A stretch of 64,000 nt of DNA, from positions 2,243,174 through 2,307,173 of the forward strand of contig CP151667.1 of the NCBI GenBank assembly GCA_038400315.1. The letters are read 5' to 3'. Below are positions 32,170 through 44,153 of this stretch, piece after piece (position 1 is the first letter of the stretch; every line of letters starts with the position of its first letter). The DNA comes from Isosphaeraceae bacterium EP7 (GTDB lineage Bacteria > Planctomycetota > Planctomycetia > Isosphaerales > Isosphaeraceae). The notes under the pieces were generated by a model that did no database searches, was not told the DNA's origin, and saw nothing but the letters and a program-made list of their open reading frames with translations. The position numbers were made by a program, and so were the translations under genes.

Positions 32170-32599
32170 GGCAACCTCCCGAGCGAAGAACACGGCTGGA
32201 ATTCGTGGGCTCAATACCGCGTTTCCATCGGTTTGACAACCCTGGATCCCACCCGCACAACTCAACCTAAGCGATCCCCCCACGACCGTCGCCCTCGAAA
32301 AAGCGAGCGGCCTAAATCCCTGCAACCACCTAGCTTAAAACGATTTCCGTTAGATAAAACCTCAAAAACTGGCCATCGGCACGGCCATAACTGCGGATCA
32401 ATGTGCTTCGCGACGTGCTCACAATCAGCCAATCAGCGGGAAGACGAAACGAACCCGGGAAGACGAAACGAACCCGGGAAGACGAAACGAACCCGGGAAG
32501 ACGAAACGAATCCGGGAAGACGAAACGAACCCGGGAAGACGAAACGAACCCGGCGCGGGCTGGGATTCTCGAGCGGGATCAATCGCGTGGCCTGGAAAC
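32170..32599. other. intergenic region with minisatellite
   Basis: A 430-bp non-coding stretch. It starts with the promoter region of the secreted-protein gene, has an AT-richer patch at about 32330-32380, and then holds the 19-bp tandem array described separately. Confidence 0.6.
32439..32552. repeat. 19-bp tandem repeat, six copies
   Basis: Six head-to-tail copies of GGAAGACGAAACGAACCCG occupy 32439-32552. Copy 4 (32496-32514) has a single C-to-T change; the others are identical. The unit is not a multiple of three and the array lies outside any supported gene. The near-identity points to recent expansion or active homogenisation, and the copy number is likely to vary between strains. Confidence 0.97.
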
Positions 32600-32962: not shown

Positions 32963-33195
32963 CGGCGGTTCCTTGTTGGGTCTCGTGCTGATCGTGGAGG
33001 ACGGCGAGATCGTCCGGTCTTGAACGAGCGGAGGATGAACCTCGCTTCAACCCGGCATTCGACCAAGGAGATGGCCCGGCATCCCTTGATTTGGAGGTTC
33101 GCGCCTTGCCTGTTTGATCGGCCCAACCTACACTTGTCGGAAGGCAGCGGAAGGCGGCGGACTTCGTGCAGGGATCGGCATCGAGGGGATCAGCG

Positions 33196-34659
33196 ATGCA
33201 AGGTTGCAACGAGATCGAGCGGACGCGGAAGCGGGTCGGCTGGTTCATGGCCGGTTGCTTCGGGTTGCTGGGCACCTGGACACTCTCGCCGGGCATTCCC
33301 GTTCTGTGGGCCCCACGCGCCGAGGCGTCGGTGAAGGCCGCGGGCATGGAGCTGTTCAACCACCGCTGGGAGCCCCACGATGCGCTCGCCGGCGTGGGCG
33401 GCGACGGCCTCGGCCCGGTCTTCAACGCCCGTTCGTGCGTCGCCTGCCACTTCCAGGGGGGAGTCGGCGGAGGAGGCGGCAACAAGCAGAACGTCAGCAG
33501 CTTCGAGACCGCTCCCACCAAGGGCGACCCCAACCTGCACGACGGACTCATCCACGCCTTCGCTGTGGATAACCGCTACGTCGAGGACCACGCCTCGCTG
33601 CACAAGCTCTTCCCGGTCATCCCCAACGGCGTGAAGGTGCAGGCCGGCTGCGGGATCCTGACCCGCGACTTCGACCCCGTTCGCACCATGAGCGTCAATT
33701 CGACCGCCCTGTTTGGCGCGGGCTGGATCGACCGGCTGTCGGACAAGAGCATCACCAACAACTACCTCAAGACGTCGTTGAAGCAGGTGGGCCGCGAACT
33801 TGACGGCAACTTCAAGGGGGTCGTCTCCGGCCGCCCGCGGGTGCTGCCCGACGGCCGCGTGGGCAAGTTCGGCTGGAAGGCCCAGTTCGCCACGCTCGAC
33901 GAGTTCGTCGCCGCGGCGTGCGCCAATGAGGTCGGCCTGGGCAACCCGCGCCGCAATCAGGCCAAGCCCTTGGGAACCGCCGGCTACCCCGACGTGAAGC
34001 CCGACCTGGACGACACCCAGTTCGACGCCCTGATCGCCTTCATCGACACCCTCGACCGACCCGACGAAGTCGCCATCGAAGACGTCGCCCTGGCCTCGAC
34101 GGCCGCGCGCGGCAAGGCCCTGTTCAGCTCGGTCGGCTGCGCGGCCTGCCACGTCCCCGACATGGGCGGGATCAGCGGCGTCTACAGCGACTTCCTGCTC
34201 CACCGGCTGGACGACCCCAACCGCGCAGGCGGCGAGGGGGGCGGCTACGGCGGGGGAAGGGCATCGGGCGCCACCGAGACGGTCGAGGTCCCGTTGCCCC
34301 GCGACCACCCGCTGCCCGAGGAGTGGAAGACCCCGCCGCTCTGGGGCGTGGCCGACTCGGCCCCCTACATGCACGATGGGGGCTCGCCGACGTTGCAAAT
34401 GGCCATCGCCCGCCATATGAACAACGCCCAGGCCGTCACCGATGCCTATTTCGAGCTGGCGCCCGACGACCGGGCGGCCGTCATCGCCTTCTTAAAGACC
34501 TTGAAGGCCCCGGCCACCGCCCAGCCCGCCGACCCCTCGGTGCTGGCCGACTCGTTGTTGCCGCCCGAGGTCAAGCGTCCCGAACCTGCCAGATCGAAGC
34601 CCAAGGCTCGCCCCAAGGCCCAGGCCCGTGCGACCGAAATCACCGCACCCGAAGCCTGA
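33196..34659 (+). CDS. di-heme oxidoreductase (DHOR/thiol oxidoreductase-like cytochrome c peroxidase family)
   Basis: A 487-residue exported c-type cytochrome. Residues 15-40 form an export segment. Two heme motifs are seen, C81-VA-C84-H85 and C315-AA-C318-H319, plus 'WKTPPLWGVADSAPYMHDGGSPTL', the block near the second heme in the DHOR (DUF1111) family. A Lys/Ala/Pro-rich tail of about 50 residues follows. Related proteins are periplasmic peroxidases or oxidoreductases. ATG 33196 has GAGGGG at 33184-33189. A convergent terminator follows. Confidence 0.9.
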   Translation: MQGCNEIERTRKRVGWFMAGCFGLLGTWTLSPGIPVLWAPRAEASVKAAGMELFNHRWEPHDALAGVGGDGLGPVFNARSCVACHFQGGVGGGGGNKQNVSSFETAPTKGDPNLHDGLIHAFAVDNRYVEDHASLHKLFPVIPNGVKVQAGCGILTRDFDPVRTMSVNSTALFGAGWIDRLSDKSITNNYLKTSLKQVGRELDGNFKGVVSGRPRVLPDGRVGKFGWKAQFATLDEFVAAACANEVGLGNPRRNQAKPLGTAGYPDVKPDLDDTQFDALIAFIDTLDRPDEVAIEDVALASTAARGKALFSSVGCAACHVPDMGGISGVYSDFLLHRLDDPNRAGGEGGGYGGGRASGATETVEVPLPRDHPLPEEWKTPPLWGVADSAPYMHDGGSPTLQMAIARHMNNAQAVTDAYFELAPDDRAAVIAFLKTLKAPATAQPADPSVLADSLLPPEVKRPEPARSKPKARPKAQARATEITAPEA

Positions 34660-34749: not shown

Positions 34750-35040
34750 TCAGGCCGCCTGCTTGTCGTCCTCGTCCTGGTGGAGGATGAGCAGGCTGGT
34801 GCGATGGAACTCCTCCTGGGTGACCTCGAAGGGGGCCCCGTTGATGGCCCAGAGGGCCTCGATCACGGCGTCCCGATCGGACTCGGGCTCGTCCCAGGTC
34901 ACGCAGAAGCGGGACTCGTCGTGGACGGCGACATCTAGGCCCAGGTCGTGCAGGTGCTGCTCGATCTCGGCCCGATGGCCGGGGTCCGAGGCGAAGGTCC
35001 AGCGGACCAGGTCGGTGAGGTGGTCGTTCGAGTCGCCCAT
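34750..35040 (-). CDS. small acidic protein of unknown function
   Basis: A 96-residue protein, 'MGDSNDHLTDLVRWTF' to a Asp/Glu-rich C-terminus. It has a predicted alpha/beta pattern ('HRAEIEQHLHDLGLDVAVHDESRFCVTWDEPE') but no known domain. ATG 35040 follows GGAGGA. It lies 120 bp downstream of the hydrogenase-like operon on the same strand and could be its last gene or independent. Confidence 0.65.
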   Translation of the reverse strand: MGDSNDHLTDLVRWTFASDPGHRAEIEQHLHDLGLDVAVHDESRFCVTWDEPESDRDAVIEALWAINGAPFEVTQEEFHRTSLLILHQDEDDKQAA

Positions 35041-35161: not shown

Positions 35162-35956
35162 TCAGGGCGTGTGGACGGCCGGCAGGCTGGCCGCTTCCAG
35201 CCGGCCCATCAGCCGCAGGAATCCATCGAGGATCGTGAGTGGGTGCGGCGGGTTGCCGGGGATGTACAGGTCGATGGGGAGAAGCCCCTCGGCGCCGTTG
35301 TTGACTTCGGGGTGGTCGCGGAAGATGCCGCCGGAGATGGCGTCGGTCCCCACGACGATGACCAGCTTGGGCGAGGTCGTCGCCTCGTAGGTGCGCAGCA
35401 GGGCTTCCTTCATGTTCTGGCTGACCGGGCCGGTGATGACGATGCCGTCGGCGTGGCGAGGCGAGGCGACGAACTGGATGCCCAGCCGGCCCATGTCGAA
35501 GACCACGGTGCCCAGCACGTTCAGGTCGGACTCGGCCGAGTTGTCGCCGCCGGCGCTGACCTGCCTCAGCTTCAAGGACCGGCCGAAGAGTCGCTTGATC
35601 TTGTCGTCGAGCTGCCTGGCGGGCTCGTACACGGTGCCCGACCGGACGACGAGGTCGGCGCGGCTGCGGGCGGCCAGTCGGTAGTCCTGGGTGAACGTGA
35701 TGGCCCCGGCTGGGCAGTCTTCCACGCAGTCATTGCAGAAGAGGCAGCGGCCCATGTCGAGGCTCAGGCCCGACGCGTCGCGGGCGACCGAGTCGCTGGG
35801 GCAGGCGTCGACGCAGGCGGTGCAGCCGTCGGAGCACTTCGAGTCGTCGAGCACGGGCAGGCCGAGGAACCGGTCGGGCAGGGCCGGCGCGGGGGCGTCC
35901 GGATAGCTGATCGTGCGGCGGCCCTGCCTCAGGCGCTCCTTGATGATCGAGATCAT
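35162..35956 (-). CDS. fusion of 2[4Fe-4S] ferredoxin (HyfH-like) and NuoB/HyfI-like subunit lacking N2 ligands
   Basis: A 264-residue protein, last core gene of the Hyf-like operon. Residues 25-90 are a HycF/HyfH-type ferredoxin with C41, C45, C48, C52 and C71, C74, C77, C81 (the first motif has one extra residue between C1 and C2). Residues 105-264 are a NuoB/HyfI-type domain ('MGRLGIQFVASPRHADGIVITGPV', 'LLRTYEATTSPKLVIVVG'). In normal NuoB four Cys bind cluster N2; here the matching positions read D138, A141, D205 and N235, and no Cys occurs after residue 81. The fold is kept but the cluster cannot be. Normally HyfH and HyfI are separate genes. Confidence 0.9.
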   Translation of the reverse strand: MISIIKERLRQGRRTISYPDAPAPALPDRFLGLPVLDDSKCSDGCTACVDACPSDSVARDASGLSLDMGRCLFCNDCVEDCPAGAITFTQDYRLAARSRADLVVRSGTVYEPARQLDDKIKRLFGRSLKLRQVSAGGDNSAESDLNVLGTVVFDMGRLGIQFVASPRHADGIVITGPVSQNMKEALLRTYEATTSPKLVIVVGTDAISGGIFRDHPEVNNGAEGLLPIDLYIPGNPPHPLTILDGFLRLMGRLEAASLPAVHTP

Positions 35957-36026
35957 GCGACGGAACCTCGGCGTGTCGGGGTCGGAACGGTGAAAGGTCT
36001 CGGACCCGGGCGGGCCGGGCCCCGCA

Positions 36027-37559
36027 TCAGAGGTCGTGCCCGCAGTAGGACAGGTTGAAGCTCTTGTTGCAGAGCGGGAAGTCGGAGATCCCCTGGTCGC
36101 GCAGCGACAGCGACAGGCCGATCCAGTTGTGGAACGACGGGTCGATCACCTTGTAGTGGGCGAACGCCCCCGCGTCGTCGGTGATGGCGACGTGACAGAT
36201 CTCGCCGCGCCAGCCCTCGACCAGCGAGACCACCAGCGAGCTGGGCGTCAGCGGACCGACCTCGACATTCGTCGGCCCTTCGGGGAGCTGGCTCGCCTGC
36301 TCGAGGACGAACTGGCCCGACCGCCGCACTTCCAGGTAGCGGACATAAGCCCTCGCGAAGACGTCGCCGGTCGCCTGAACCGAGATCGGGATATAGTGGA
36401 AGCGGTAGATCCCGCTGGGATAGTCCAGCCGCACGTCGCGGTCGAGGCCCGACGAGCGGCCCGCGGGACCGACCAGGCCGAGGGCCAGGGCGTCGTCACG
36501 CGAGACAGTGCCGGTCCCCTCGAACCGGGCCTGAACCGAGAGCGAGTCCCAGAGCAGGCCGGCCGCGCCGTTGACGTCGACGAGGGCGGGCTCGACACGC
36601 TTACGCATCCGATCCAGGAGTTCGCCGTCGAGGTCGTAGCCAACCCCGCCGGGCCGGACCAGGCCCCGGCCGAAACGATTGCCGCAGATCATGGCGGTGG
36701 AGTTGAGGAAGTCGCCCCGGATCCGGCCACAGTACGATGCCGTCGGCAGGTAGCCGACGTCGTTAGCCAGCGCCCCGAGGTCGCCAGTGTGGTTGGCCAT
36801 CCGCTCCAGCTCGAGCGCGATGCCGCGGATCGCCTGGGCCCGCAACGAGGGGCGGGCGCCGGCAAGGGCCTCGACGGCCTGGCAGTAGGCCGTCGCGTGG
36901 CCGACCGACGTGTCGCCGGCGATCTGCTCGACAAGCCTGAGCGACTTCCGGTTCGGCCCTTCCCAGAGCGCCTTTTCGATCCCACGGTGCTGGAAGCCCA
37001 GCGCGATTTCCAGGTGGAAGACCCGCTCGCCGTGGCACTGAAATCGAAAGGCCCCCGGCTCGATGACCCCGGCATGAACCGGGCCGACGGCGACCTCGTG
37101 GACTTCCTGCCCCTCGACCCGATAAAACTCGGTCCCAGCCGGCTGCACGCCGGGGAGGATGGGCGTGTCGGAGGAACGGCCCCAGGCGTCGTGGCCGGGC
37201 CGGTAGGAGGCATGGAACCGGACCGGCTTGAGCCAGGGATGCCCCTCCGGCACGACGCCCCACTGCTCGGCGATCTCCCGCTCGAACATGTGGGCCGACG
37301 GGCAATCGGGCGTCAGCGACGGGTAGCGGTCGGGCACGTCGGCGGAGAGGACCGCCAGCTCACCCTCGTCGTCGAGGGCAAGGACGGCGTAGAGCCGGAT
37401 CCTGCCGTCGACTGGCCGGCCGAACAAGGCCACCAATCGGCCGCCCGATCGAACCGACTCGACGACCTCGTCGCGGAATCCGCCGAAGGCGAGGTGCGGC
37501 ACGTCGGCCAGCGGGATCGGCTCATTGTGGGCCAGGCGGGTCGCTTGGGCCGTCGCCAT
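36027..37559 (-). CDS. hyfG: HyfG-like large subunit without NiFe ligands (NuoC-NuoD type)
   Basis: A 510-residue fusion of a NuoC-like N-terminal domain ('AHMFEREIAEQWGVVPEGHPWLKP') and a NuoD/hydrogenase-large-subunit domain ('GERVFHLEIALGFQHRGIEK', 'GHATAYCQAVEAL', 'LELERMANHTGDLGALANDVGY'). The NiFe-binding L1 motif (normally RxCGxC) reads Q212-I-A-G-D-T217, so both Cys are gone; the C-terminal DPCxxC is replaced by a tail with C497 and C506 nine residues apart. At most one ligand position could survive. It therefore cannot be a hydrogenase. Starts at ATG 37559 overlapping the hyfF-like stop (TGATG). The gap to the next gene is 70 bp. Confidence 0.92.
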   Translation of the reverse strand: MATAQATRLAHNEPIPLADVPHLAFGGFRDEVVESVRSGGRLVALFGRPVDGRIRLYAVLALDDEGELAVLSADVPDRYPSLTPDCPSAHMFEREIAEQWGVVPEGHPWLKPVRFHASYRPGHDAWGRSSDTPILPGVQPAGTEFYRVEGQEVHEVAVGPVHAGVIEPGAFRFQCHGERVFHLEIALGFQHRGIEKALWEGPNRKSLRLVEQIAGDTSVGHATAYCQAVEALAGARPSLRAQAIRGIALELERMANHTGDLGALANDVGYLPTASYCGRIRGDFLNSTAMICGNRFGRGLVRPGGVGYDLDGELLDRMRKRVEPALVDVNGAAGLLWDSLSVQARFEGTGTVSRDDALALGLVGPAGRSSGLDRDVRLDYPSGIYRFHYIPISVQATGDVFARAYVRYLEVRRSGQFVLEQASQLPEGPTNVEVGPLTPSSLVVSLVEGWRGEICHVAITDDAGAFAHYKVIDPSFHNWIGLSLSLRDQGISDFPLCNKSFNLSYCGHDL

Positions 37560-39034
37560 CACTGTCCTCCCAGGGAATGGGCCATCATGTGCAGGACCGA
37601 CTCCAGGGCCGGCGGGATGTACAGCCCGAGGGCCAGGCCCCCCAGACCCAGGGCCGCCGGGGGGACGGTCGCCCAGAGCGACTCGCGCAGCGGGGTTCCC
37701 TCGACGGTGGCCGTCGCCTTGCCCTGGCCCATCGGCAGGACCAGGTTGGCCATCCCCACGAAGATCACCGCCAGCAGCGCCAGGTAGGTCGCGGCGACCA
37801 AGAATCGGCCCTGGTCGAGGGCCGCCTTGAGGATCACGAACTCGCCGAAGAACGCGCCGAAGGGCGGGATGCCGGCGATGGCGAACAGGCCGGCCCCCCA
37901 GAGAAGGCCGGTCACAGGCAGCGAGCGGCCGAGCCCGCGGATCTGATCGCCCGACTTGGTCTTGTAGGCCGCCAGGATATTCCCGGCCGTGAGGAACAGG
38001 GCCGCCTTGCCCATCGACTGGCAGACCGCGAACAGGCCGGCGCCGTAGGCTCCGACGCCGCCCAGGCCCACACCGAGGGCCAGGATGCCCATGTACTCGA
38101 CGCTCGAATACGCCAGCATCCGCTTGTAGTTGTTCTGGCCGACGATGAAGATCGCCGCCACGGCCATCGACACTAGCCCGAAGCCGATGAGCAGGTTGCC
38201 GCTGAACCCCGCGGGGCCCGCCGAGAGCATCACCTGGTGGGTGCGCAGGATGCCCAGGAAGGCGCAGTTGGAAAGCGCCCCGGCGAGCAGGGCGGTCACC
38301 ACCGACGGGGCCTCGCTGTAGACGTCCGGCAGCCATGTATGCAGCGGGGCCAGCCCCGCCTTGGTCCCGTAGCCGACCAGGATGAACAGGAACGCCGCCT
38401 CCAGCCAGCCCACCCGCAGGCTGGGGCCGGCCTCGATCAGCTTGCTCAGGATCAGGCCCGAGGATGCGTCCCCTTTGGACACCGCGACGGCCAGCATGAA
38501 GTTGCCCATCAGGGCCAGCGCGATGCCGACCGAACAGATGAGCAAATATTTCCAGGTGGCTTCCAGGGACCTCGGCTGGCGATGGAAGTAGACCAGGGGT
38601 GCGCTGACGAGCGTGGTCAGCTCGATGGCCACCCAGAGCAGGCCGAAGTGCTGGCTGACGGTGACCAGGGTCATCGTGGCCAGCAGCATCAGCAGGCAGC
38701 CGGTGAACGAGGCCTCGGGCCCGTTGTCGAACCGGAAGCTCGACTTGTAGTCGATATGCCGCTTCGTCTCCGCCTCGCGCCTCAGATAGCCCACGGCGTA
38801 GAACGACGAGGGGAGGAACAGCACGCTGATAATGCTGAGGAACAACAGGCCGGTCTCATCCAGCGCCAGCCAGCCGTCGGCCATGGTCGCAGGGCGATTC
38901 GCCCAGGCCCCGGCCGTGAACAGGGCGTGGAACGCGGCCGTGAGCACCAGCAGGGCGCGCCGGGGCGTGTCCGACTTCAGGAAGAAGGCGGCGGCGCCGG
39001 CGGCCACCAAGATCGCCAGGAAGGCCAGGATCAT
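37559..39034 (-). CDS. hyfF: HyfF-like antiporter-type membrane subunit (NuoN/NuoM family)
   Basis: A 491-residue protein with about 14 membrane helices of the proton_antipo_M family. Conserved features include 'FGLLWVAIELTTLVSAPLV' (Glu in TM5), 'LVGYGTKAGLAPLHTWLPDVYSEAPS' (Lys and the loop after TM7) and 'NNYKRMLAYSSVEYMGIL'. These ion-translocation residues are intact, so this subunit should still pump H+ or Na+. It starts 6 bp after the HyfE stop and overlaps HyfG. Confidence 0.92.
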   Translation of the reverse strand: MILAFLAILVAAGAAAFFLKSDTPRRALLVLTAAFHALFTAGAWANRPATMADGWLALDETGLLFLSIISVLFLPSSFYAVGYLRREAETKRHIDYKSSFRFDNGPEASFTGCLLMLLATMTLVTVSQHFGLLWVAIELTTLVSAPLVYFHRQPRSLEATWKYLLICSVGIALALMGNFMLAVAVSKGDASSGLILSKLIEAGPSLRVGWLEAAFLFILVGYGTKAGLAPLHTWLPDVYSEAPSVVTALLAGALSNCAFLGILRTHQVMLSAGPAGFSGNLLIGFGLVSMAVAAIFIVGQNNYKRMLAYSSVEYMGILALGVGLGGVGAYGAGLFAVCQSMGKAALFLTAGNILAAYKTKSGDQIRGLGRSLPVTGLLWGAGLFAIAGIPPFGAFFGEFVILKAALDQGRFLVAATYLALLAVIFVGMANLVLPMGQGKATATVEGTPLRESLWATVPPAALGLGGLALGLYIPPALESVLHMMAHSLGGQ

Positions 39035-39040
39035 TGCGAT

Positions 39041-39685
39041 TCAGTCCCTCAGCGTGGAAAGCTGGTCGACGTCGATGTGGTCGAACTCGCGGCTGATGTG
39101 GAAGATGGCGATCCCCATGACGAAGACCGCCACGAAGACGTCGAGCAGCACGCCCATCTCCACCAGGAACGGCTCCTCGTGGGCCATCGCGACGCCGAAG
39201 ATGAAGATGCCGTTCTCGAGCACGAGATAGCCCACCACCTGCATCACCGCCGTGCGGCGGGAAATGATCAGGAAGAGGCCCACCAGCACCGAGAAGAAGG
39301 CCATCGGCAGAACCAGCGGGGACGTGGTGGGGACCGGCAGCTCGAACCGGCTCCCCAGCCAGACCGACAACATCAGCATGCCCACGCCCGCCATCGCCGA
39401 CGCCGCCAGCCCGACGTAGGGCTCCGTCTCGTGCTTCACGTCGGCCGTGCGCGTCGCCCTCAGCAGCAGGGTCGGGAACAACCAGCCCTTCAGCGCGATG
39501 GTGATGATGGCCACGGCCACCAGCCGAAATCCGACGCCGTCGTGCGACAGCGGCAGGGCGAGCACGCCGAGGGCCACCCCCTGCCAGGCCGCCAGCCGGA
39601 TGCACGCCCGCAGGCGGCCCGTCACCAGCATCGCCAGGTTCAGCAGGGCCACCACCACCAGCAGCGGATCGATCAGGGACTTCAA
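39041..39685 (-). CDS. hyfE: HyfE-like membrane subunit (NuoK-like)
   Basis: A 214-residue membrane protein with about seven helices, the length of HyfE. The C-terminal 'FFSVLVGLFLIISRRTAVMQVVGYLVLENGIFIFG' carries the buried Glu of the NuoK-like half-channel, and the end 'FHISREFDHIDVDQLSTLRD' is typical of HyfE. The frame is open much further upstream, but the start must be TTG at 39685, overlapping the HyfC stop as TTGA, which gives the expected length. Confidence 0.88.
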   Translation of the reverse strand: MKSLIDPLLVVVALLNLAMLVTGRLRACIRLAAWQGVALGVLALPLSHDGVGFRLVAVAIITIALKGWLFPTLLLRATRTADVKHETEPYVGLAASAMAGVGMLMLSVWLGSRFELPVPTTSPLVLPMAFFSVLVGLFLIISRRTAVMQVVGYLVLENGIFIFGVAMAHEEPFLVEMGVLLDVFVAVFVMGIAIFHISREFDHIDVDQLSTLRD

Positions 39686-40605
39686 GAGACCACCCCCCCG
39701 TGTTCGAGGACCAGGGCCAGGCCGGCCAGCGTCACCGCGCCGATGAGGAGCTCGGGCACCCGCATCATCCGCAGCCGGGCCATTGTCGACTCGATCACCC
39801 CCAGGGCTACCGCCAGGGCGATCATCCCCGCCACGGCCACCGTCAGGTCGAGCGCCGGGATGCCGAAGTGGAACGGGATGACCAGGCCGACGATCAATGA
39901 CCCCAGCATCCAGAGCTTCAACGCCGCCCCGTAGAGGATGAAGGCGAGGTCGGGACCGCCGTGGTCGAGCACCATCACCTCGTGGATCATCGTCAGCTCC
40001 AGGTGGGTGTTGGGGTCGTCCACCGGGATCCGCGAGTTCTCCGCCAGGAAGACGATCATCAAGACCACCGCGACCAGCCCGAGCACCAGGCCCGAGTGGC
40101 CCCAGACGTGCAATGAGATCGCCTGATTGATGCCCGACAGCGAGATGCTTCCGGTCTCGCGGGAGACGGCGACCAGGCCAAGCAGCAGCGCGGGCTCGGC
40201 CAAGGCCGAGAAGAACACCTCGCGGCTGGCCCCCATCCCCTCGAACGGCGAGCCGGTGTCCAGCGCTGCGAGCACGGTGAACAGCCGGGCCAGGCCCAGC
40301 AGATAGGCCAGCAGCAGCAGGTCGCCCTCGAATGAGATGGGCGACCGGCAGCCGCCCAGCGGAACCAGGGCGATGGCCGCCAGCATCGCGCCCAGGCCGA
40401 CGACGGGACCGGCCCGGAAGACCCAGGTGGTCACGTTGCTGTAGACCGTCCCCTTGCGCAGCAGCTTCCAGAGGTCGTGATACGCCTGGAGTAACGGGGC
40501 CCCGGCACGGCCGGCGAAGAGGGCCTTCGTCCGGTTGGTCACGCCCAGCAGCAGGGGCGCCAGCGTCAGGGCCAGCAGCGGTGGCAGGAAGGACGAGACA
40601 TTCAT
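39682..40605 (-). CDS. hyfC: HyfC-like membrane subunit (NuoH/HycD family)
   Basis: A 307-residue membrane protein with about eight helices. 'NRTKALFAGRAGAPLLQAYHDLWKLLRKG' is the cytoplasmic first loop of the NuoH/HycD family, and 'ENSRIPVDDPNTHLELTMIHEVMVLDHGGPDLA' is its acidic loop lining the site that couples redox and ion transfer. ATG 40605 is chosen from homologous N-termini ('SSFLPPLLALTLAPLLLG'). It is coupled to HyfE by TTGA. Confidence 0.92.
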   Translation of the reverse strand: MNVSSFLPPLLALTLAPLLLGVTNRTKALFAGRAGAPLLQAYHDLWKLLRKGTVYSNVTTWVFRAGPVVGLGAMLAAIALVPLGGCRSPISFEGDLLLLAYLLGLARLFTVLAALDTGSPFEGMGASREVFFSALAEPALLLGLVAVSRETGSISLSGINQAISLHVWGHSGLVLGLVAVVLMIVFLAENSRIPVDDPNTHLELTMIHEVMVLDHGGPDLAFILYGAALKLWMLGSLIVGLVIPFHFGIPALDLTVAVAGMIALAVALGVIESTMARLRMMRVPELLIGAVTLAGLALVLEHGGVVS

Positions 40606-40742
40606 GGAAGGTTTGATCCGTGAGACATCCGCCACCACGTCGGGCGCCGAGGCATCGCGATTCGATGCGATGCGGCTCCGACACGTCCCATTCTCGTTGA
40701 TCTCGTCGCGTCGCAAGCAACCGGGCGCGAGGCCGGGGCGGC

Positions 40743-42749
40743 TCAGGTCGGCATCACCAGCCCCAGGTACCAGACCAGGAGCACGATGAGCGTCAGGGCC
40801 ACATAAAGGATGTAGAGGTGAGTCTGGCCATTCTGGATCCAGCGCATCAGGTCGGCGACGCGGCCGACACCCCGGAATGCCGGCCGATAGATCAGCTCGG
40901 TCGCCACGTCGGGCATCTCGCTGGAGTACGACCCGGGCGCCGGGAAAAGGCCGGTCGAGGGGACGATGCTCCGCCGCTCGCGGAAGACGCCGGCGAAGAA
41001 GGTGCCCAGCGGCTCGACGAACGACGAGCCCGTGTACTGGATCCGGGGGGTACCGCCCTGGTAGCCGCAGCCCCAGGTCGTCGAGGTTGCGACCTCACGG
41101 TTGCGGAACAGCAAGGCCCGCAGGCCGTAGAGCGAGGCGACCAGGACGAGCAGCAGGCCCGAGACCGTCACGACCGAGGTCAGCGCGGGGGCCACCTCGG
41201 CCGTCGCGGGGACCACCCGGTCGGGCGCCAGCTTGGCGACGCCCGCAGCGACCGGGGCCAACACCTCGGCGATCCGCGGGGAGCCGAGCCCCACCGCCAC
41301 GCAGAGCAGGCCCAGCACGGCCATCGGCCCGGTCAGGCCCAGCCCAGGGGCATGGGCGTTGACCGCGTCTTCGGTTCGGGGAGAGCCCAGGAAGACGATC
41401 CCGATGACCTTGGCGAACGTCAACGCCGCCAGCCCGCCGATCAGGGCCAGGGCCCCGACCACCACCGCGGACGGCACCGCGTAGAGGTTGCCCGATTCCA
41501 TGTGGCCGCGGAACGCGCCCAGATAGATAAGGAACTCGCCGGCGAACCCGTTCAACGGGGGCAACCCGCAGATGGCCACCGCGCCCAGCACGAACAGGCC
41601 CGAGAGCAGCGGCATCGTCTTGGCAAGTCCGCCCAGCCGGTCGATCTGACGGGTCCCGGTGGCGTGCACCAGGGCGCCGGCCCCCAGGAAAAGCATCCCC
41701 TTGAACAGGGCGTGATTCAGGACGTGCAGCAGCGCCCCGGAGAACCCCAGGACCGCCACCGAGGGCATGTTGCCGGAGACGCCGACGAGGCCGATGCCCA
41801 GCCCCAGAGCGATGATGCCGATGTTCTCGACCGTGCTATACGCCAGTAGCCGCTTGATATCCTGCTGGGTCGCGGCGAACAGGATGCCCCAGACGCCCGA
41901 GAGCACACCGATGCCCACCAGGAGCCAGCCCCACCAGGCGGGTCCCGCCGGCAGCAGGGTCAGGGTGCGGATGATGCCGTAGATGCCCGTCTTGACCATC
42001 ACGCCGGACATGACCGCCGAGACGTGACTGGGGGCCGCGGGGTGCGCCTCGGGCAGCCAGACATGCATGGGCATGAATCCGGCCTTGGTGCCGAAGCCGA
42101 TGACCGCCAGCACGAACAGGACGCTCGCCGTGCCGGCCGCCAGCTTGGGCGACGCCGCGGCGATGGCGTCGAAGTCGAGCGAGCCGGCGCCCTGGCCCAG
42201 GATCGCGAAGAAGGCGAATAGGAAGGCCGTCCCCAGGTGGGTCGCGATCAGATAGGTACGCCCCGCCTCGATCACCTGCGCGTCCTCATCGTCGAAGACG
42301 ACGAGGAAGTAGGAGGAGATCGACATCACCTCCCAGGCGACGAGGAACAGGATGCCGTTGCGCGACAGGACGACGGCGAGCATGCTGGCCGTCAGGACGT
42401 TGTACATCAGCCAGGAGAAGCCCAGCGAACGCTCGCCACGGTGCTCCATCAGATAGGTCGCCCCGTAGACCGCGGCGACTCCGCTGAGAACCAGGATCGG
42501 CAGCGCGAACCAGGCCGAGAGCGGGTCGAGCGTCAGCCAGAGCGAGCCATAGGGCACCGACCAGGGACGATGGAACGTGGACGAACGGGAGTAGACGATC
42601 GAGTCGACCACAGGAGCCAGGCCGATCAGGCAACCGACTAGCGAGCCGCCCGCGCCGAGCCAGGTCGCCAGGCGGGGCCTGGGCCCCGAGAGTATCGAAA
42701 GGACGCCGCCGCCGAGCATCACGGACAGGGCGATCAGTAAGGTATCCAT
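40743..42749 (-). CDS. hyfB: HyfB-like antiporter-type membrane subunit (NuoL family)
   Basis: A 668-residue membrane protein with about 16 helices. It keeps 'NGILFLVAWEVMSISSYFLVVF' (TM5 Glu), 'FGTKAGFMPMHVWLPEAHPAAPSHVSAVMSGVMVKTGIYG' (TM7/TM8 Lys) and 'QQDIKRLLAYSTVENIGII'. The C-terminal extension includes 'TTWGCGYQGGTPRIQYTGSSF', as in HyfB/HycC. It starts 4 bp after the PTS-EIIA gene stop, so the regulator and the complex are in one transcript. Confidence 0.93.
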   Translation of the reverse strand: MDTLLIALSVMLGGGVLSILSGPRPRLATWLGAGGSLVGCLIGLAPVVDSIVYSRSSTFHRPWSVPYGSLWLTLDPLSAWFALPILVLSGVAAVYGATYLMEHRGERSLGFSWLMYNVLTASMLAVVLSRNGILFLVAWEVMSISSYFLVVFDDEDAQVIEAGRTYLIATHLGTAFLFAFFAILGQGAGSLDFDAIAAASPKLAAGTASVLFVLAVIGFGTKAGFMPMHVWLPEAHPAAPSHVSAVMSGVMVKTGIYGIIRTLTLLPAGPAWWGWLLVGIGVLSGVWGILFAATQQDIKRLLAYSTVENIGIIALGLGIGLVGVSGNMPSVAVLGFSGALLHVLNHALFKGMLFLGAGALVHATGTRQIDRLGGLAKTMPLLSGLFVLGAVAICGLPPLNGFAGEFLIYLGAFRGHMESGNLYAVPSAVVVGALALIGGLAALTFAKVIGIVFLGSPRTEDAVNAHAPGLGLTGPMAVLGLLCVAVGLGSPRIAEVLAPVAAGVAKLAPDRVVPATAEVAPALTSVVTVSGLLLVLVASLYGLRALLFRNREVATSTTWGCGYQGGTPRIQYTGSSFVEPLGTFFAGVFRERRSIVPSTGLFPAPGSYSSEMPDVATELIYRPAFRGVGRVADLMRWIQNGQTHLYILYVALTLIVLLVWYLGLVMPT

Positions 42750-42753
42750 ATCC

Positions 42754-43467
42754 TTAGGCGGGCTCCCCGGCGGTCACGGCGGACGTGGGCGAGGACGATT
42801 CGTCCACCCGTCGCAGCTCCTCGGCGAGCTGCTCGAGCGGCGCCCGCCGCTTCAAGGCCTGGCGTAGCGAGGGTTCCTGCAACGCCCGGGACAGCCGGGC
42901 GAGCACCCTGAGATGAGACCGGATTGTCGGGCTGATCAGCACGAAGAGGGTCTGGACCGGCAGCCCGTCGGGCGCGTCGAAGGCGAGCGGCGCGGCGAGC
43001 TGGCAGATGGTCAGCGATGGGCATCCGAACCCGCCCAGCACCAACGGCTGACGCGGATGAGGGATGGCGATGCCGTCCCCCACGGCGGTCGAGCCGACCG
43101 ACTCGCGGGCCATCAGCAGTTCTTCGACTGCGCCCCGGTCCGCCCCATCGGGAAGGTTGAGGCGACGGACGAGTGCGGCGAAGACCTCGGCCTTCGTCGA
43201 GCCTTCGACCCCCTGGATCAGGCCGCCCGTGGCCAGGGCCCCGGCGAGCGTCTCCTCGGGCGGACCTTCGTTGTTCTTGCCGTTGACCAACCCGACGTCG
43301 AACGGGATCCGGTGTAGTCCGGCCCATTCAAGCAATTCAGTGCGGTCGAAGTAGGTCCGGCCGCCGACCTGGCGCGAGGGAAGGTCCTCGTCGTGGGCCC
43401 ACTTGTAGACGTGGGACTCGGGCACCCTGAAGATGGCGGCCACGTCACGGACGGTCAGTTGTTGCAT
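42754..43467 (-). CDS. helix-turn-helix (excisionase-type) / PTS EIIA fusion
   Basis: A 237-residue protein. Residues 1-55 are a MerR/excisionase-type winged helix ('LTVRDVAAIFRVPESHVYKWAHDEDLPSRQVGGRTYF'). Residues 75-220 are a PtsN-type EIIA domain with the phospho-acceptor His137 in 'TAVGDGIAIPHPRQP'. EIIA-Ntr domains sense phosphotransferase status; fused to DNA- or partner-binding HTH they can act as regulators. The gene heads the Hyf-like operon with a 4-bp gap to hyfB. ATG 43467 is chosen as the first codon of the HTH domain. Confidence 0.85.
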   Translation of the reverse strand: MQQLTVRDVAAIFRVPESHVYKWAHDEDLPSRQVGGRTYFDRTELLEWAGLHRIPFDVGLVNGKNNEGPPEETLAGALATGGLIQGVEGSTKAEVFAALVRRLNLPDGADRGAVEELLMARESVGSTAVGDGIAIPHPRQPLVLGGFGCPSLTICQLAAPLAFDAPDGLPVQTLFVLISPTIRSHLRVLARLSRALQEPSLRQALKRRAPLEQLAEELRRVDESSSPTSAVTAGEPA

Positions 43468-44153
43468 CGCCTTGCACTTCTCCCGCCCCGGCGAACGCCC
43501 CATGAGGTCGGTCGCGGACGGGCCGTCCGCGAGAGCCTTGGAGAGTCGGTCGGCGATCAACAAGCGTCAGATCCGGCCCGGTCTCGGTCACACGTCCATC
43601 TCCCAGACCTGATCCGCCCCCGTTGCCGATAGGCGTCACGATTGGGGAGAAGGGTCGAGAGACTCGTTGAGGACTTCCGGGTGGATCGCGCGCCTGGGGG
43701 GGAGGGCACGCCCATGCTGGGCAAAAAGAAGGGAGGGGCCGCGAGCGGAACGGGGGAGGGACCGATCGAGGCCAAATGCGGCGACGGGGTCACCTCGTCA
43801 GCCGTCACCGCCAGGCCCCGATGGACGGGGCAAACGGGACAACGAGGCCGATCGGCGAGCCGTCATCCGCCTTCAGCGGACCACCTCGGGAGTCTGCGGG
43901 CCTAGAACCTTCAGACTCCTCCGGCCCTTCACTTCTGTCTTCGCCAATCATCGGCAGGTCATCACCGAGTGTCAAGCCAGAGCTTAACTTCGGCGCGTTG
44001 ATTCTCGGAGCCGTGATGACCTGCTCCCCCCCGAGCCGGCAAGCGTCGGGCCGCCGTCGAGGTCGTCGCCCGACCGACGTTCGGTTACGATGGCGGCCTT
44101 GCGCGAGGCCGAGGGCCCGCGAAATCCACCGCTCCTCACGAGGTGAAGGCCGA
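43468..44153. other. intergenic region between divergent genes, no supported gene
   Basis: About 690 bp between the HTH/EIIA gene (minus) and the inositol monophosphatase gene (plus). It must hold the promoter of the Hyf-like operon. The open frames through it are low-complexity Arg/Pro/Ser. Confidence 0.55.

Follow-up and report, generated by a model that had tools for sequence, protein, structure and literature searches.

An Ehr-type operon of Isosphaeraceae bacterium EP7 without the ligands of the NiFe site and of the N2 cluster

We analysed a 64,000-nucleotide stretch of the Isosphaeraceae bacterium EP7 genome (contig CP151667.1, positions 2,243,174 to 2,307,173; below, the window), which carries an operon for a membrane-bound relative of hydrogenase-4 and respiratory complex I. 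As judged from its alignments, the encoded complex lacks both the NiFe ligands of the large subunit and the N2 ligands of the small subunit, and it belongs to the Ehr (energy-converting hydrogenase-related) family. In our estimate the chances are about even that the complex assembles and translocates ions, its large-subunit site working with no electrons supplied through N2. A wider picture is offered tentatively, as a possibility: a complex I-like ion mover without electron transfer would have evolved repeatedly, a new ligand-binding or catalytic site in the large subunit would have made N2 dispensable, an enzyme IIA protein of the phosphotransferase system (PTS-EIIA) would serve as a switch, and in some lineages there would be a tie to bicarbonate uptake.

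The operon consists of seven closely spaced genes on the minus strand, in the order EIIA regulator-hyfB-C-E-F-G-HI:

42754-43563, minus strand: gene with HTH_17 and PTS EIIA type 2 (PtsN-like) domains (Pfam), first gene of the operon, EIIA histidine present (GIAIPH)
40743-42749, minus strand: hyfB, NuoL-like antiporter subunit, charged residues intact
39682-40626, minus strand: hyfC, HycD/NuoH-like subunit (Pfam), acidic residues intact
39041-39688, minus strand: hyfE, NuoK-like subunit
37559-39034, minus strand: hyfF, NuoN-like antiporter subunit, charged residues intact
36027-37559, minus strand: hyfG, NuoCD-like large subunit (EhrL), NiFe ligands replaced
35162-35956, minus strand: hyfH-hyfI fusion (EhrS), a ferredoxin part for two [4Fe-4S] clusters plus a NuoB-like part

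Antiporter-like, NuoH-, NuoB- and NuoD-like subunits, the set of a Hyf/Ech-like operon, are all encoded here. The gene order hyfB-C-E-F-G-HI had been read in a preliminary description of the same DNA, and the gene coordinates and domain matches bear it out. That description had the operon extend over 35162-42749, which holds for six genes but leaves out the first one, the helix-turn-helix (HTH)/PTS-EIIA gene at 42754-43563, whose end is separated from hyfB by 4 bases. We count this regulator gene as a member of the operon.

To locate the ligand positions, HycE/HyfG and HycG/HyfI of E. coli K-12 were used as references and aligned with the window proteins and their relatives. In the large subunit, A214, T217, S504 and G507 stand at the positions of HycE C241, C244, C531 and C534, and the two motifs RxCGxC and DPCxxC have become AGDT and NLSYCG. 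In the fused small subunit, D138, A141, D205 and N235 stand at HycG C48, C51, C115 and C145. The fusion has eight cysteines (41, 45, 48, 52, 71, 74, 77 and 81), all within the ferredoxin part, and a check of the whole fused protein found none in the NuoB-like part. The preliminary description had reported the NiFe ligands as lost, the same four residues at the N2 positions and a cysteine-free NuoB-like half; the alignments with HycE/HyfG and HycG/HyfI returned identical residues, and no cysteine lies beyond residue 81. Its assignment of the complex to Ehr, with both ligand sets gone, is supported by the alignments and the family comparison. Hidden or displaced cysteine ligands are excluded by the position of the last cysteine, and sequencing error or chance is excluded because such losses recur, with the reading frame open, in relatives from other assemblies. 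The first ferredoxin motif of the fusion (residues 41-52) reads C-x3-C-x2-C-x3-C, a spacing common to most of the relatives aligned; the usual ferredoxin spacing is C-x2-C-x2-C, which makes this motif one residue longer.

The former NiFe pocket is a new, near-invariant site rather than relaxed sequence. Across 70 large subunits there is no variation at G215, D216, N498, K499, S500, F501, L503, S504, Y505, G507, D509 or the terminal L510, and the polar members of this group are retained in 92 to 94 of the 94 rows of a wider set. C175, H154, D260, N286, R298, W450 and D473 show the same retention (92 to 94 of 94 Ehr rows), while HycE, HyfG and the NuoCD of this genome have other residues there. 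In the 96 rows compared, no sequence runs past the C-terminus of the window large subunit. The site, [AS]GD[TA] together with NKSFNLSYCG[HF]DL at the protein end, is present in all eight N2-less taxa described below, and all 17 site residues tested are unchanged in them. These near-invariant residues and the fixed C-terminus mean that the pocket was rebuilt and did not fall into disuse. Position 212 aligns with HycE R239 and with an arginine of Nqo4 (2fug_4), which we take to be the N2-stabilising arginine of complex I, next to N2. This position is threonine in 74 of 82 rows that keep N2 and in none of the eight N2-less rows (Fisher 1.7e-7, without correction for kinship); the eight N2-plus rows that also lack this threonine include the sisters L045 and L122 (loci and alignment rows carry L numbers).

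The family around this complex was collected by a profile search of genome contigs from 84,980 species with the large-subunit alignment, which returned at least 567 relatives; the best 80 loci were used, and the row set is a non-random sample. The titles of these 80 loci name Planctomycetota, Verrucomicrobia, Lentisphaerae, Kiritimatiellae, Omnitrophota, Spirochaetota/Treponema, Acidobacteria, Myxococcales/Deltaproteobacteria, Geobacter/Geomonas/Desulfobacteraceae, Elusimicrobia, Latescibacterota, Zixibacteria, Riflebacteria, Auribacterota and a Methylococcaceae. A NiFe motif was found in none of the best 80 of at least 567 relatives, and absence of the NiFe ligands is the rule for the Ehr family. 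Within the class, 20 of 248 genomes have Ehr (this genome and a divergent copy included); it was further found in 11 of 45 of the family (E<=1e-40), in 35 of 392 of the phylum and 103 of 387 in the phylum of genome G248 (both E<=1e-60), and in 1 of 201 genomes in the order of the Methylococcaceae genome. The missing NiFe site of Ehr is already in print: passages of PMC6349859, PMC10284858, PMC10432482 and PMC7894505 describe group 4 hydrogenase relatives without NiFe-binding residues and call their function unknown or uninvestigated, and a passage of PMC8691401 names Ehr too. We found no account of N2-less Ehr members in the literature searched, the original Ehr paper (Marreiros 2013) lying outside that search.

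Loss of N2 was then followed in a small-subunit set of 151 rows, in which four records are doubled (L091/L157, L088/L166, L081/L191 and L118/L186, all CCCC at the four ligand positions). All four N2 cysteines are present in 138 rows, and the ligand set is altered in ten, eight of which lack two or more ligands and two of which lack one. The planctomycete N2-less rows are L035 (DESF), L037 (DACS), L040 (NEEW), L046 (DAS-), the window (DADN) and L144 (NEDW), those of Opitutia are L111 (CACW) and L126 (DVCW), and the single changes are L066 (CCCS, Methylococcaceae) and L178 (CRCC). L044 and L095 gave no N2 data, and L051 (two of two ligands present), L046 and L144 are cut short. With the ligand columns taken out, a tree built from both subunits required four N2 changes, all forced by well-supported branches; it was run with 93 rows and with a 50-row subset, giving the same four changes, and L066 was scored as N2-less in both. 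A tree of the small subunit only (41 rows) gave five changes, of which only two were forced by well-supported branches. L051, L052 and L053 were excluded from the trees, and the 50-row and 41-row sets are hand-picked subsets. Placing the six planctomycete N2-less rows together was not rejected in the approximately unbiased test (p-AU 0.137), so one or two losses inside Planctomycetota both fit. A single loss across phyla, with the planctomycete and Opitutia rows as one clade, was rejected (p-AU 3.5e-8), so two or more ligands were lost independently at least twice, in Planctomycetota and in Opitutia. N2 loss in Ehr is derived, rare and repeated. The substituted residues vary by lineage, as expected of drift after loss.

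The ferredoxin part shows another pattern. Its eight cysteines are retained in the N2-less rows (L144 is without the first since its contig begins there) and are complete in 129 of the 151 rows overall. The four ligands of the inner cluster are kept in all but three rows, in which there are gaps or the domain is missing. Two or more of C1, C2, C3 and C8, which we take to be the ligands of the outer, N6a-type cluster, are absent from 19 rows. For L110 and L134 these losses are gaps or a missing domain; among the other 17 (L067, L073, L083, L085, L099, L106, L107, L124, L132, L133, L167, L169, L171, L177, L178, L202 and L207), 16 retain all four N2 cysteines, so Ehr lineages shed different parts of the electron wire, rarely both. 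Loss of the outer cluster reads as a second, separate erosion of that wire.

The ratio of nonsynonymous to synonymous substitution rates (dN/dS) was calculated pairwise for each subunit by the Nei-Gojobori method (NG86). For the small subunit of N2-less pairs it was 0.157 (L040/L144), 0.302 (L035/window), 0.095 (L111/L126) and 0.218 (L037/L040), and this subunit ranked lowest of the six in two of the pairs and third in one. The small subunits of N2-plus pairs gave 0.092 and 0.098 where dS was finite; in one such pair it was infinite. The L035/window pair was high in every subunit (0.30-0.57), and all orthologous core subunits of N2-less pairs stayed at or below 0.57; HyfB values of 0.66 (L111/L126) and 0.61 (L037/L040) were set aside as non-orthologous matches with 32-35% identity. 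Among the closer relatives L035-L047 the redox subunits are 56-70% identical, against 40-66% for most membrane subunits. These values show purifying selection on the N2-less subunits, perhaps somewhat relaxed.

The membrane part keeps its pumping residues. HyfB E140, K222, K253, H342, H346 and K350, HyfF E138, K225, K304 and K343, and HyfC E136, E144, D203, E210, E216 and E279 match E. coli Hyf residue for residue and are conserved across the family alignments (81, 80 and 77 rows for HyfB, HyfF and HyfC), so the preliminary description was right to call the charged residues of the pumping subunits intact. Predicted structures of the redox subunits had a confidence (predicted local distance difference test, pLDDT) of 90.2 for the large and 92.1 for the fused small subunit. 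Against the formate hydrogenlyase (FHL) structures, the predicted large subunit gave Z 46.7 and a root-mean-square deviation (rmsd) of 2.6 over 494 aligned residues (7z0s_E), and the predicted NuoB half gave Z 16.9 and rmsd 2.3 over 143 (7z0t_G).

Compared with known systems, the complex is closest to Ehr, which has been reported from Geobacter (GSU0739-0745), comammox Nitrospira and Margulisbacteria. With these it shares the Hyf-like subunits and their order, the absence of NiFe ligands and the HyfH/HyfI-type small subunit, and its large subunit has 56-57% identity with the rows of Geobacter argillaceus, Geomonas and Pelobacter, on which relatedness was judged. It differs from the 138 of 151 Ehr-type small subunits with a complete N2 set in having none of the four cysteines. 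With E. coli Hyf/Hyc (hydrogenase-4/formate hydrogenlyase) it shares the subunit set, the order B-C-E-F-G-H-I and the fold; however, it lacks the ligands of NiFe and of the proximal cluster, HyfH and HyfI are fused, a PTS-EIIA gene stands in front, and counterparts of HyfA, HyfD, HyfJ and HyfR are absent among its seven genes. It is the proximal cluster and the NiFe site of FHL that oxygen damages (passages of PMC9474812). The two NiFe-binding CxxC motifs of a group 4 [NiFe] hydrogenase are not there. With respiratory complex I (NuoB/NuoCD/NuoH/NuoL/NuoN) it shares the fold and the pumping residues, but it has neither the N2 ligands of NuoB nor the quinone-site tyrosine of NuoD: G215 aligns in place of the quinone tyrosine of Nqo4, presumably Tyr87. 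With the NCBIfam Nuo models listed, the window proteins also stay below cut-off. A likeness to DAB2 (DabA-DabB), namely a NuoL-like membrane subunit without a redox chain, would apply only if the non-redox reading is right, and DabA is beta-carbonic-anhydrase-like whereas the window operon has no such protein. DabA (PF10070), the Zn-site partner in DAB-type CO2 hydration complexes, was not seen in a Pfam scan of ten window proteins, the only part of the window and genome searched for it.

Outside the operon core, neighbouring genes were surveyed in 151 deduplicated Ehr loci (distinct from the 151 small-subunit rows), with a small control of 20 complex I loci. Of 109 testable Ehr loci, 78 have an HTH-EIIA homologue on the strand of hyfB in the 3 kb upstream of it, against none of the 20 complex I control loci; a testable locus has hyfB and at least 900 bases upstream, and 13 further loci lacked this coverage. 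In a first set it was the immediate upstream neighbour of the hyfB-type gene in 42 of 92. Both the HTH_17 and the EIIA domain were found in all ten scanned homologues, and the EIIA histidine is retained in 55 of 57. A gene of this kind thus commonly precedes Ehr operons, across phyla. Tandem pairs of HTH-EIIA genes precede the operons of L040, L044 and L046, which belong to one N2-less clade (N2 data being absent for L044). According to PMC9239096, an EIIA protein of the nitrogen PTS (PTS-Ntr) affects K+ uptake through KdpD in Sinorhizobium, and among the matches listed in a search for papers linking EIIA with Hyf/Ehr none was on Ehr by title.

In the same survey, 9 of 151 loci, from Planctomycetota and Verrucomicrobiota, had a SulP permease no farther than 2.3 kb from the Ehr core. 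It is on the same strand in seven (L036, L041, L042, L049, L050, L117 and L122) and divergent in two (L040 and L044, the latter a 100-aa match), and two of the proteins carry a P-II domain (L040 and L036). SulP gave 11 matches in all; L216 (130 aa, 25% identity) and L075 (at a distance of 6.8 kb) did not qualify as neighbours. Two loci that share a genus (L048 and L049) have an SbtA-type Na+-bicarbonate transporter (PF05982; E 3.6e-93 in L049) upstream, on the same strand. In two loci (L035 and L038), one of them N2-less, a beta-carbonic anhydrase is found no more than 3.3 kb away; a weak carbonic anhydrase match in L072 (83 aa) was not counted. These neighbours suggest a tie of Ehr to bicarbonate, which we treat as a lead only.

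The source genome has 7.2 Mb in 5 contigs and contains two further, separate NuoD-type genes at 1.76 and 4.17 Mb, so the Ehr operon is not its sole complex I relative. HPr is present. Missing Hyp maturation genes were dropped as an argument since HypD was found in the genome, which means that another NiFe enzyme may exist. Downstream of the operon, a 96-aa open reading frame (ORF; 34750-35040) had no Pfam match and no homologue in the other compared loci, and a di-haem peroxidase/cytochrome c-like gene (33166-34659, plus strand; Pfam) is convergent with the operon. A tandem array at 32437-32553 (19-base unit, 6.2 copies, 97% matches) sits among overlapping ORFs only, whose reality is doubtful.

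How such a complex might work can be proposed as follows. It would assemble and move ions through HyfB, HyfF and HyfC. Because the last hop is gone, electrons of the ferredoxin part would no longer reach the large subunit, and what governs ion movement would be either binding or non-redox chemistry at the rebuilt large-subunit site or the ion gradients as such. Both [4Fe-4S] clusters that are left might be a redox sensor or a structural element, and the EIIA protein might adjust expression or activity to the phosphorylation state of the PTS. Assembly without N2 has a precedent, by analogy, in Yarrowia complex I with NDUFS2-R121M, an exchange of the arginine that we align with position 212; in this enzyme, according to PMC8042128, N2 is absent, the complex is otherwise intact and quinone reductase activity is abolished. 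Analogous precedents for ion movement without redox chemistry are isolated antiporter modules, which conduct protons (PMC11496545), and DAB2, which couples a NuoL-like subunit to CO2 hydration (PMC13144422). An intact-looking complex I relative of this kind suggests that such pumps can work without electron delivery to the usual place. Several points weigh against the proposal. Only eight N2-less taxa are known here, mostly from draft assemblies, and every N2-less lineage seen retains both ferredoxin clusters, which is odd if electrons are irrelevant. T212 is already alanine in the N2-plus sisters L045 and L122, so the change at 212 may predate N2 loss. Large-subunit residues 161-166 and 506-510, part of the pocket, have pLDDT <50, and the structure models are of single subunits, their partner chains absent. 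Finally, the small subunit ranks fifth of six by dN/dS in L037/L040, and its range in N2-less pairs (0.095-0.302), set against the two N2-plus values, means that selection on N2-less small subunits may be somewhat relaxed.

That retention of the ferredoxin cysteines, together with the inner-cluster ligands kept almost throughout the family, is what speaks for a complex that is still an oxidoreductase, its electrons leaving the inner ferredoxin cluster (N6b type) for an acceptor docked on the small subunit or slowly crossing the longer gap. We consider this unlikely: relay steps in FHL are all <14 A (passage of PMC9474812) and removal of N2 would lengthen the gap to the large subunit, loss of N2 alone ends quinone reduction in the Yarrowia enzyme (PMC8042128), and no extra cysteine substitutes for N2. 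It is very improbable that the N2 site was instead rebuilt with oxygen or nitrogen ligands holding another cofactor or metal ion. D138 and D205 of the window could in principle ligate a metal, but the residues vary by row (DADN, DESF, NEEW, NEDW, DACS, DVCW, CACW), with a bulky W or F in fourth place in five, and resemble drift, not one ligand set. This free drift also fits a decaying, functionless complex on its way to being lost, as do the patchy occurrence of Ehr in the class and small-subunit dN/dS somewhat above that of N2-plus pairs. Yet we hold decay to be improbable, given dN/dS no higher than 0.57 in every orthologous core subunit of N2-less pairs, large and small subunits more conserved among closer relatives than most membrane subunits, open frames and a large-subunit site unchanged in the N2-less taxa.

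A role of Ehr in uptake of inorganic carbon or anions would be compatible with an ion mover run without N2: Ehr might drive CO2 hydration as DAB2 does, the working precedent by analogy, or supply the Na+ gradient to bicarbonate symporters. The SulP, SbtA-type and carbonic anhydrase neighbours favour it. However, 140 of the 151 loci have no SulP in the stretch examined, and SulP also occurs in 1 of 20 complex I controls, so these counts do not establish an excess per kilobase, just a close and mostly same-strand position. Matches of these three kinds are absent from the window, SulP proteins carry sulfate too, and no carbonic anhydrase fold was seen in Ehr itself. We regard this role as quite unlikely.

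It has long been asked how a reaction in the peripheral arm of complex I can drive ion channels far away from it. In the N2-less Ehr complexes nature would have deleted the final redox step while the remainder is still selected, and with them one can test whether binding or non-redox chemistry in the old quinone/NiFe pocket is able to run the coupling machinery. The link to EIIA may provide a regulatory handle on the Ehr family.

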